A DNA stretch of 46,635 nt from positions 1 to 46,635 of the forward strand of contig NEUY01000002.1 of the NCBI GenBank assembly GCA_002304425.1, given 5' to 3'. The notes under the pieces were generated by a model that was not told where the DNA came from, did no database searches, and saw only the letters and a list, made by a program, of their open reading frames with translations. Positions 43,201 through 45,857 of the stretch are shown here, one piece after another. The position numbers were made by a program, and so were the translations under genes. The stretch is from Opitutia bacterium Tous-C10FEB. Its GTDB lineage: Bacteria; Verrucomicrobiota; Verrucomicrobiia; Opitutales; Opitutaceae. How positions within the stretch are numbered: the first letter of the stretch is position 1; each line of letters starts with the position of its first letter.

Positions 43201-43326
43201 CGTAACTAAACTTAGGTGGTTTTAGATTAAAAGCAAAGCCGCTTGGTTAAGTAGAGTAGGCGGACGAGAGGCCAAGATTCTTCGGCCTTGCCCGGCGGGG
43301 TCGGATCAGCTAACGCTCATAGTCTT

Positions 43327-44058
43327 ATGGGACGTCAATGGCTGCATGCAAAACGCGCGATCGTTAATTTAAGAAAAGGCCAAACGGTCGGCAAGCTGGT
43401 GAAGGAAATTACGGTCGCCGCCAAAATGGGCGGCGGGGATCCCGAAGGCAATGCACGGCTGCATGCGGCGATTGAAAAGGCGAAGAAAGCCAGCGTGACG
43501 CGCGATGTGATTGAGCGAGGCATCGCCAAGGGCGCCGGCACCGGCAGCGAAAAAATGCATCTCGATCACGTTATCTTTGAGGGCTACGCGCCGCATAAGG
43601 TCGCCGTGATTGTGGAGTGCATGACGGACAATCATCAGCGCATTACCCCCGAGATTCGGTATCTCTTCAAACAAGGTGTGCTCGGGACGGCCGGCAGTAA
43701 TAAATTTCTTTTTGATCACGTAGGCTTAGTGGAAGCGTACCATGCCGATCGCAGTATCGACCTCGAAGGGGTGGCCATTGAAGCGGGGGCGAATGATTTT
43801 GAGGCCTTAGCGCACGCGCAGAACGATGATATTCCTGAGGGCAGTAATGGCGCGCGGTTTATCACCGAGCGGACCGCGGTGCATGCGGTCTCCGTGTGGT
43901 TGAAGCAGCACGGCTGGGCGGTGATCACCAGTGAAATTGGGTACACCGCTAAAACTTTTCCGGAGCTCGATGAAGCCACGCGGGCGCAGGTCGGCGAATT
44001 TCTGCAGGCGCTCGAAGATCACGACGACGTGCAGCGCGTTTGGGCGGCCGTTAAATAA
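43327..44058 (+). CDS. YebC/TACO1 family protein
   Basis: A 243-residue protein from the ATG at 43327 (MGRQWLHAKRAIVNLRKGQTVGK), the true N-terminus of the family; the track start at 43288 adds 13 unrelated residues. Also typical are MGGGDPEGNARLHAAIEKAKKASVTRDVIERGI and YAPHKVAVIVECMTDNHQR. Long called a transcriptional regulator, the family is now also tied to translation; human TACO1 and bacterial YebC help ribosomes through difficult stretches such as polyproline. The start MGRQW, in place of MAGHSKW, is a known variant type. Confidence 0.9.
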   Translation: MGRQWLHAKRAIVNLRKGQTVGKLVKEITVAAKMGGGDPEGNARLHAAIEKAKKASVTRDVIERGIAKGAGTGSEKMHLDHVIFEGYAPHKVAVIVECMTDNHQRITPEIRYLFKQGVLGTAGSNKFLFDHVGLVEAYHADRSIDLEGVAIEAGANDFEALAHAQNDDIPEGSNGARFITERTAVHAVSVWLKQHGWAVITSEIGYTAKTFPELDEATRAQVGEFLQALEDHDDVQRVWAAVK

Positions 44059-44085: not shown

Positions 44086-44115
44086 AAAAAAACGCCGGCT
44101 TATTAGGCCGGCGTT
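44086..44115 (-). terminator. Intrinsic terminator for the polylysine peptide gene
   Basis: CGCCGGC (44093-44099) and GCCGGCG (44107-44113) form a 7-bp GC stem, extended by AA/TT pairs. On the minus strand it is followed by TTTTTTT (44086-44092). On the plus strand the hairpin is followed by GAGGGG, so it is not a terminator for yebC. It begins 27 bases after the stop of the tiny ORF at 44142. Confidence 0.85.
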
Positions 44116-44141
44116 GAGGGGAGAAAGAAGCAACGCGAGCG

Positions 44142-44210
44142 TTACTTCTTCTTCTTCTTAGCAGCTTTCTTAGCAGGTTTCTTTTTGGCCATGCAGTCAG
44201 TATCAGTCAT
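44142..44210 (-). CDS. Tiny lysine-rich peptide (16 or 22 residues)
   Basis: The ORF reads MTDTDCMAKKKPAKKAAKKKKK, or starts at the inner ATG (44192) as MAKKKPAKKAAKKKKK. Ten of the last 16 residues are Lys, the rest mainly Ala and Pro, like the tails of histone H1-like bacterial proteins. It is far below the track's size limit. Its reality rests on the strong minus-strand terminator right after it, since no other gene on that strand lies between malQ and the terminator. A weak CGGA precedes the outer ATG. It could be a nucleoid or ribosome-binding peptide or an RNA-level regulator; I know of no assigned function. Confidence 0.55.
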   Translation of the reverse strand: MTDTDCMAKKKPAKKAAKKKKK

Positions 44211-44246
44211 GTTCCGCTGAGTTGCACTAATAATTTTTCATTTCGC

Positions 44247-44297: not shown

Positions 44298-45857
44298 TCA
44301 GCGCAGAAAAAGTTGCGCGAGTTCGCGCAGATAAGCCGCGGAGTTAAGATTTATTTTTTCTAGCGCAGCCGCGCGATACCGCCACTGCCAATTACCAGTG
44401 GCGCGAGCGGGGGTGTTGAAACGCGCGTTCGCGCCGAGCGCGAAAATATCCGTGAGCGGAATAATCGCGAGGCGCGCGACGCTCGCGTAGCAGGTGCGAA
44501 TAAAATCCCAGGAGATGTCGGTGCCCGCGATGCGGAGATAGCGGCGGACGTGATTGCGCTCCGCTTCACTCACCGCTTCATACCAGCCGCGCGTTGTGTC
44601 GTTATCATGCGTGCCGGAGTAAATCACTGCATTGGGCTCAGCATTATGCGGCAGGTAATTGTTCTGGGCGTCGCCGCCCCAGGCAAATTGCAAGACGAGC
44701 ATGCCCGGCAGGCCCGTCGCTTGGCGCAATTGCACCACCGCTGGGGAAAGCACGCCGAGATCTTCCGCGATTATCCGCGCGGTCGGTAATTCGCGTTGGA
44801 ACGCACGGAAGAGGTCGAGCCCCGGGCCCGCGACCCACGCGCCAATGCGGGCATTTTGCGCGGGGAGTGGAATTCGCCAGTAGGCCTCAAACCCGCGAAA
44901 ATGATCGATGCGAATAACGTCACAGCAGGCGAAGGCGGCGCGTAAGCGCGCGAGCCACCAACGATAGCCGTCCGCTTGATGGGCGGGCCAACGATAAAGG
45001 GGGTTGCCCCAAAATTGTCCGTCCGCAGAAAAATAATCAGGCGGGACGCCCGCCACCGCGAGCGGCAAAAAAGTTTTTGGGGCTAGCTCAAAAAGCTCTG
45101 GGTGTGCCCACGCATCAGCAGAATCGCCCGCCACAAAAATCGGTAAGTCACCAATAATTTCAATGCCGCGCTCACGGCCGGCGGTGCGCAGCAAGGCCCA
45201 TTGACCAAAAAAAAGATATTGGGCGAACCGGCAGCTGGCCTGCGCTTCGGCGAGGCTGTGACGAAGCGGGGATTTTAAAGCGCGCCGGTAATCGCGTGTT
45301 TCAGCCGGCCATTCCCACCAGGGCAATCCGCCCTGGTGCGCTTTCAGCGCGTGAAAGTAAGCGTAAGCATCGAGCCACGCCGCATTTTTTTTACAGAACG
45401 CGGTAAAATCACCATAGGGCAGTGCTGGTCGCACAATTTGGTATTGGCGGTAAGCCTGCTGCAATAATTGCGGTTTAATTTGGTAGAGTGCGCCATAGTC
45501 GGTGTGGTCCGCCGACAGCGTCGCCAAAGGGGTCAGGTCAGCAGCGGTCAATAAGCCGAGGGGAATCAGTGCGGTCAGATCGACGAGGTAGGGATTGCCG
45601 GCGAAAGCCGAGAAGCATTGGTACGGTGAGTCACCGTAGCCCGTAGGACCAAGCGGGCAAACCTGCCAGTATTTCATTCCGGCTGCTTGCAAGAAATCCA
45701 GAAACTTAAGCGCGTGGTGATCTAACACCCCGCAACCCTGCTCACTGGGTAGACTCGTTGGATGCAGGAGGACGCCGGCGGCGCGAGTTTGTAGCCAGTT
45801 AAATAACGGTGGAGCCGCTGCGGGAGTAGCCGGAATTTTATTTTTCGGTGAGACCAT
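44298..45857 (-). CDS. malQ: 4-alpha-glucanotransferase (amylomaltase)
   Basis: A 519-residue GH77 enzyme. Motifs: GVLLHPTSLPSEQG at the start, YWQVCPLGPTGYGDSPYQCFSAFAGNPYLVDL, GDLPIFVAGDSADAWAHPELF, VIRIDHFRGFEAYW with the nucleophile Asp, IIAEDLG with the acid/base Glu, and YSGTHDNDTTRGW. It transfers maltodextrin segments between glucan chains, for glycogen or starch-derived dextrin metabolism. No other glycogen gene is in the window. Upstream, TAACGAT-T-ATCGCTA (45874-45888) is a near-palindrome 17 bases before the ATG that could be a repressor site. Confidence 0.96.
   Translation of the reverse strand: MVSPKNKIPATPAAAPPLFNWLQTRAAGVLLHPTSLPSEQGCGVLDHHALKFLDFLQAAGMKYWQVCPLGPTGYGDSPYQCFSAFAGNPYLVDLTALIPLGLLTAADLTPLATLSADHTDYGALYQIKPQLLQQAYRQYQIVRPALPYGDFTAFCKKNAAWLDAYAYFHALKAHQGGLPWWEWPAETRDYRRALKSPLRHSLAEAQASCRFAQYLFFGQWALLRTAGRERGIEIIGDLPIFVAGDSADAWAHPELFELAPKTFLPLAVAGVPPDYFSADGQFWGNPLYRWPAHQADGYRWWLARLRAAFACCDVIRIDHFRGFEAYWRIPLPAQNARIGAWVAGPGLDLFRAFQRELPTARIIAEDLGVLSPAVVQLRQATGLPGMLVLQFAWGGDAQNNYLPHNAEPNAVIYSGTHDNDTTRGWYEAVSEAERNHVRRYLRIAGTDISWDFIRTCYASVARLAIIPLTDIFALGANARFNTPARATGNWQWRYRAAALEKINLNSAAYLRELAQLFLR

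Follow-up and report, generated by a model that had tools for sequence, protein, structure and literature searches.

Strongly basic, disordered protein segments rich in Lys, Ala and Pro are known in bacteria as histone H1-like tails, as in Chlamydia Hc2 and at the C-terminus of Pseudomonas AlgP; AlgP binds DNA and sits on polyphosphate granules (PMC9239181). In published surveys, leaderless bacterial genes carry a -10-like TANNNT box about 12 bp before the start codon (PMC3160421), a geometry that has been tested in Deinococcus (PMC12340547). A third kind of system, the CcaF1/CcsR unit (CIN1 locus), combines a small RNA-binding protein with structured RNA in one short transcription unit, CcaF1 having 71 aa and a DUF1127 domain and being followed by separate sRNAs (PMC10253847).

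Here we describe a micropeptide gene in a 46,635-nt window of the genome of Opitutia bacterium Tous-C10FEB (Opitutaceae; contig NEUY01000002.1), which shares features with each of these systems. Like the H1-like tails, its product is made of Lys with Ala and Pro and would be disordered and strongly basic, but across its family it comprises 11-22 residues, with neither a globular domain nor a repeat array. As in leaderless genes, a -10-like box lies about 12 nt before the ATG and a Shine-Dalgarno sequence is missing; unlike them, it has an additional conserved GTGC at -35 and a 16-codon ORF with its own terminator, and its transcription start is predicted from sequence. Compared with CcaF1/CcsR, there is no separate sRNA in the unit. 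The gene is a previously unannotated kind of gene. Gene callers miss proteins so short and repetitive, as do family libraries and masked similarity searches. This one nonetheless displays clear coding constraint and a conserved dedicated promoter, and it persists where its neighbours have changed. Provided that it is expressed, few stand-alone genes recognised through conservation would be smaller, and one could ask directly whether a polycationic tail by itself serves the cell.

Distribution and coding constraint of the reading frame

The ORF sits between malQ and a convergent yebC-family gene (Table 1). Its peptide MAKKKPAKKAAKKKKK, read directly from the sequence as the translation of ATGGCCAAAAAGAAACCTGCTAAGAAAGCTGCTAAGAAGAAGAAGAAGTAA, has 16 residues, 10 of them Lys. 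The first-pass annotation of the window had correctly claimed a short Lys-rich ORF on the minus strand, together with a 22-residue version starting at 44210. We dropped the longer form as unsupported, since L003 and L004 have ATT in place of its ATG and the codons that it adds would read through the conserved -10 box. The genomes compared carry two YebC-like groups, and the second copy is 34-38% identical to the yebC beside the micropeptide.

Table 1. Features of the micropeptide unit and its neighbours (positions within the window)
Feature	Position	Strand	Remarks
AT-rich stretch ATGAAAAATTATTA	44228..44241	-	Just upstream of the -35-like element; A/T conserved at -44 to -37 across members
GTGC core, -35-like element	44224..44227	-	35 nt before the ATG; at -34 to -36 in 38/38 members
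-10-like hexamer GATACT	44199..44204	-	-12 to -7 from the ATG; position kept in members
Micropeptide ORF	44142..44192	-	ATG 44192, TAA 44142-44144, 16 codons plus stop; frame conserved in 38 members
Stop-codon hairpin (putative)	44124..44151	-	5' arm includes the last Lys codons and the stop; z = -3.6; compensatory pairs in relatives
Intrinsic terminator (predicted)	44086..44115	-	9-bp GC-rich stem and T run; stem covaries
malQ (4-alpha-glucanotransferase)	44298..45857	-	Pfam PF02446; upstream neighbour, outside the micropeptide unit
yebC-family gene (TACO1/YebC)	43288..44058	+	Start codon putative; Pfam PF01709, PF20772; convergent, outside the micropeptide unit

We compared yebC-anchored loci from 57 relatives. 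The earlier annotation had proposed looking in relatives for the same short Lys-rich ORF and terminator beside yebC or malQ, and the ORF is seen between malQ and yebC in 20 of the 21 genomes of the genus itself. It had also named a conserved hairpin without a conserved frame as the outcome that would speak against the gene; we found the opposite, both being conserved. The one exception in the genus, G019 (L007), in which malQ runs directly to yebC and the micropeptide gene is gone, is a clean natural loss. A degenerate DNA pattern matched 33 of 252 family genomes (reversed-pattern control, 0), and on inspection 26 of the 33 matches were true micropeptides, in genera g1, g49 and g55, the remainder being starts of longer proteins. 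Genomes of g1, g49, g55 and g58 (L163/L219) share the order malQ - peptide - yebC, and among these loci identity falls to 61% for malQ and 71% for yebC. Further members, in g40 (MATKKPAKKTAKKKKK), g68 (MATKKPAKKVAKKPAKKAAKKK) and g2 (MASKKPAKKTAKKPAKKGKK and MATKKSAKKPAKKKGKK), were added by an independent search with R1, a covariance model restricted to the final six codons, both hairpins and the T run. These carry the same promoter although R1 did not contain it, and the ~1-2 kb fetched around them showed no malQ and no yebC. The gene is thus present in its own genus and six more, seven genera of one family, with no member outside the family among 273 genomes drawn from the order. Most other genera of the family lack it and one genus-mate has lost it, so it is dispensable.

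In 19 disjoint member pairs, the differences at codon positions 1, 2 and 3 numbered 26, 22 and 65, a third-position share of 65/113 (p=1.2e-7 against one third); equal-length gap-free pairs alone, where alignment choice cannot help, gave 18/32 (p=0.006). Length differences were multiples of three in 10 of 10 pairs, and the non-coding spacer after the stop differs by 1, 2, 4 and 6 nt besides 3. No Asn codon occurs among the 331 Lys codons of the peptide alignment, and each of the four bases occurs at the third position of the members' Ala codons. The AAR-only pattern could be due in part to pairing with the pyrimidine-rich 3' part; the Ala/Pro pattern and the indels cannot come from it. These comparisons point to clear coding constraint on the ORF. 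It is short and of low complexity, and its members are related by descent, all of which might be expected of an ORF that arose by chance where a purine-rich stretch adjoins a terminator. Such an origin seems very improbable in the face of the frame and indel tests, the empty reversed-pattern control and the persistence of the ORF where neither malQ nor yebC lies nearby, and of the fact that 117 of the 119 look-alike matches listed in the wider scan described below are in frame, although that pattern did not demand it. A polylysine peptide gene with its own terminator, as first proposed, is strongly supported by the conserved reading frame, promoter and terminator.

Some R1 matches belong to other units and were set aside. 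In g7 they are proteins ending in KKK followed by a terminator. The match in g62 (L237) is a 219-aa protein with an N-terminal domain and a long Lys/Ala/Pro H1-like tail that ends in KKKKK ahead of a terminator. Those in g65 (L222, L225, L227, L229-L232 and L234) are peptides of 23-41 aa, MAKAKK...KKKK, related in composition and encoded at a different locus, with a GGAA-type site ahead of the start and a stop hairpin and terminator similar to those of the micropeptide gene.

Promoter, predicted transcript and terminator

The hexamer at about -12 to -7 reads GATACT, GACACT or GACAAT in most of g1, and TAAAAA, TAGAAA or TAATTA in g49 and a few others. Position -1 is a C in 37 of 38 members, and none of the 38 has a Shine-Dalgarno sequence. 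With the box so spaced, transcription would start on the A of the ATG or next to it, and the mRNA is predicted to be leaderless. The GTGC element is not the sigma-70 -35 consensus. We considered a wider regulon and rejected it, since the promoter motif ATTNTTMGTGCAAC occurs only once more in G000, inside coding sequence. In at least five genomes of g51 (L258-L262), a GTGC lies ~35 nt before the ATG of a conserved 157-158 aa protein, SmpB-like by eye; no GANACT-type -10 box was found at this gene in those loci, and the GTGC there is probably a coincidence.

The predicted transcript of 107 nt has a folding z-score of -3.0. The hairpin around the stop codon, with AAGAAGUAA in its 5' arm, reaches a z-score of about -4 in L034 and L038, compared with -3.6 here, and lies near zero, not significant, in the g2 and g40 examples. 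Compensatory pairs are seen in per-sequence folds: the second base after the stop pairs as G-C, C-G or A-U, A-U replaces G-C in the last Lys codon of L243, and in L014 and L220, where the stop is UAG, G-C replaces A-U. Simply asking whether the stop codon is enclosed in a hairpin is uninformative, as ~70% of the stops of ordinary long ORFs qualify too in these GC-rich loci; the claim therefore leans on z-scores and covariation, which argue with moderate strength that the hairpin is real.

The arms of the terminator span 44107-44115 and 44091-44099, and its seven-T run ends at 44086. The GC-rich hairpin and T run had been described as facing the minus strand alone, and terminator-like character is indeed confined to that strand; the hairpin follows the ORF as claimed, at a measured distance of 26 rather than 27 nt. 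The malQ stop (44298) lies ~180 nt from the hairpin, again as the annotation had it, and weaker terminator-like sites, likewise on the minus strand, exist at the malQ end itself (44301-44329), so malQ need not use the terminator at 44086-44115.

A short Lys-rich ORF followed by a terminator also recalls a leader peptide or attenuator, and one planctomycete look-alike (L066) is placed upstream of an ornithine/DAP/arginine-family decarboxylase. Gene order refutes attenuation at the present locus: in all malQ-yebC members, the minus strand downstream holds only the antisense of yebC, so that no gene is left to be controlled. Ribosome stalling as a means of controlling a downstream gene, an idea that could be drawn from the first-pass annotation, is excluded at the locus on the same ground, and a leader function deserves almost no credence.

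The possibility that the transcript itself is the active product has more substance. Its size, its own promoter and terminator, its two hairpins with covariation in both, and its folding z-score would all suit a dual-function small RNA, for which CcaF1/CcsR (PMC10253847) is a precedent; such an RNA would regulate other mRNAs, perhaps through the pyrimidine-rich linker CUUCUUUCUCCCCUC, the peptide being secondary or acting on that same RNA. We nevertheless think this unlikely, because the coding constraint is clear, the C-rich linker is not kept in g2 and g40, and no Rfam family reaches its gathering score, the best match being at chance level (23 bits, cut-off 42). An sRNA directed against Shine-Dalgarno sequences was rejected, the C-rich linker of g1 not being kept in g2 and g40.

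Proposed action of the micropeptide

Our preferred reading is that of an autonomous leaderless gene with its own terminator, encoding a 16-residue polycation that acts by binding polyanions, and we regard the chances of its being correct as even. At the level of sequence, comparison of the members establishes the reading frame, the geometry of the promoter, the hairpins and the independence from neighbours, and we infer that the gene is transcribed and translated. Its promoter would start transcription at the ATG, giving a leaderless mRNA of ~107 nt that would be translated into the highly basic peptide, and the gene's own terminator would end transcription. The stop-codon hairpin would probably protect the 3' end or slow termination. 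The disordered polycation would then bind polyanions in the manner of an H1 tail, most likely nucleoid DNA or ribosomal or other RNA and possibly polyphosphate.

Judging by its composition and by H1-like tails such as that of AlgP, a disordered peptide in which 10 of 16 residues are Lys should bind polyanions, with DNA, rRNA and polyphosphate as candidates; however, any polylysine would do so in vitro, and the expectation therefore says little about the real target. Binding to DNA or rRNA is plausible. The likening of the peptide to an H1-type tail in the first-pass annotation holds for its Lys/Ala/Pro composition, and the resemblance is one of composition only. Neither Pfam nor NCBIfam gave a match for the 22-aa reading or for homologues, and a 22-aa homologue matched nothing in the PDB up to E=10, ribosomal chains of the bTHX, bL36 and eL41 type included, short biased sequences being hard to match in all of these. 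Literature searches for such polylysine micropeptides returned nothing relevant.

With 11-22 residues, a peptide does not emerge from the ribosomal exit tunnel before termination. Since the micropeptide would still be inside the tunnel at that moment, and its terminal Lys run adjoins a stop codon held in a hairpin, it may be that the nascent or released peptide tunes translation from within the tunnel or on rRNA, with the hairpin slowing termination. Some members have only a weak stop hairpin, and there is no downstream gene for control in cis; we judge such a ribosome-directed role to be rather improbable.

Look-alike micropeptides in other phyla

We scanned one genome per GTDB species with a pattern encoding MAKK[KQ]xA...KKK-stop, across a gap that did not enforce frame, and at least 118 stretches matched. 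Of the 104 distinct matches listed, 101 are ORFs no longer than 25 residues, and 72 of these 101 have a Shine-Dalgarno-like site; the matches listed come from Rokubacteria, Chloroflexi/Dormibacteraeota, Planctomycetes, Eisenbacteria, Omnitrophota, DPANN and other archaea, and the second Opitutae group described below. The Shine-Dalgarno-led MAKKK...KKK* micropeptides share with the Opitutaceae family the start MAKKK, a length of 11-21 residues and the terminal Lys run, and differ from it in their strong Shine-Dalgarno site, their neighbours and their downstream sequence. Convergence on a simple polycation is possible.

Several look-alikes have a gene for a chromosome-handling protein no more than a few hundred nt away: recG or a recG-like start (L074, L094, L109, L126, L147), ftsK (L093, L121, and L145 by similar N-terminus only), smc (L082, L111), recA-like genes (L107, plus look-alikes L112, L118 and L138) and DNA ligase (L097, L139). 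These RecG, FtsK, SMC, RecA-like and DNA ligase neighbours are listed as found and serve as a lead only; secA, icd, a class II tRNA synthetase and a lipase are found beside others. Free-standing MAKKK...KKK* micropeptides of 11-22 residues might form a widespread, unrecognised class of prokaryotic gene products, leaderless in Opitutaceae and Shine-Dalgarno-led in Rokubacteria, Chloroflexi, Planctomycetes, Omnitrophota and DPANN archaea, there often near recG, ftsK, smc, recA-like and DNA ligase genes, and serving as minimal counterparts of histone tails on the chromosome or the ribosome. We offer this generalization tentatively and rate its chances somewhat below even.

Four planctomycete/Phycisphaerae loci (L065, L114, L142, L177) share a conserved RNA-like stretch, GTCGTC...CGCCACGG...GACGAC, which in three of the loci follows directly after the micropeptide and for which Rfam gave no match at gathering score. 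In a second Opitutae group (L067, L073, L075, L080 and ~25 similar loci), the peptide MAKKKAAAKKSAKKATKAKKK is encoded upstream of isocitrate dehydrogenase, with strongly conserved flanks, a GC-rich hairpin before it and UUCUUC after the stop.
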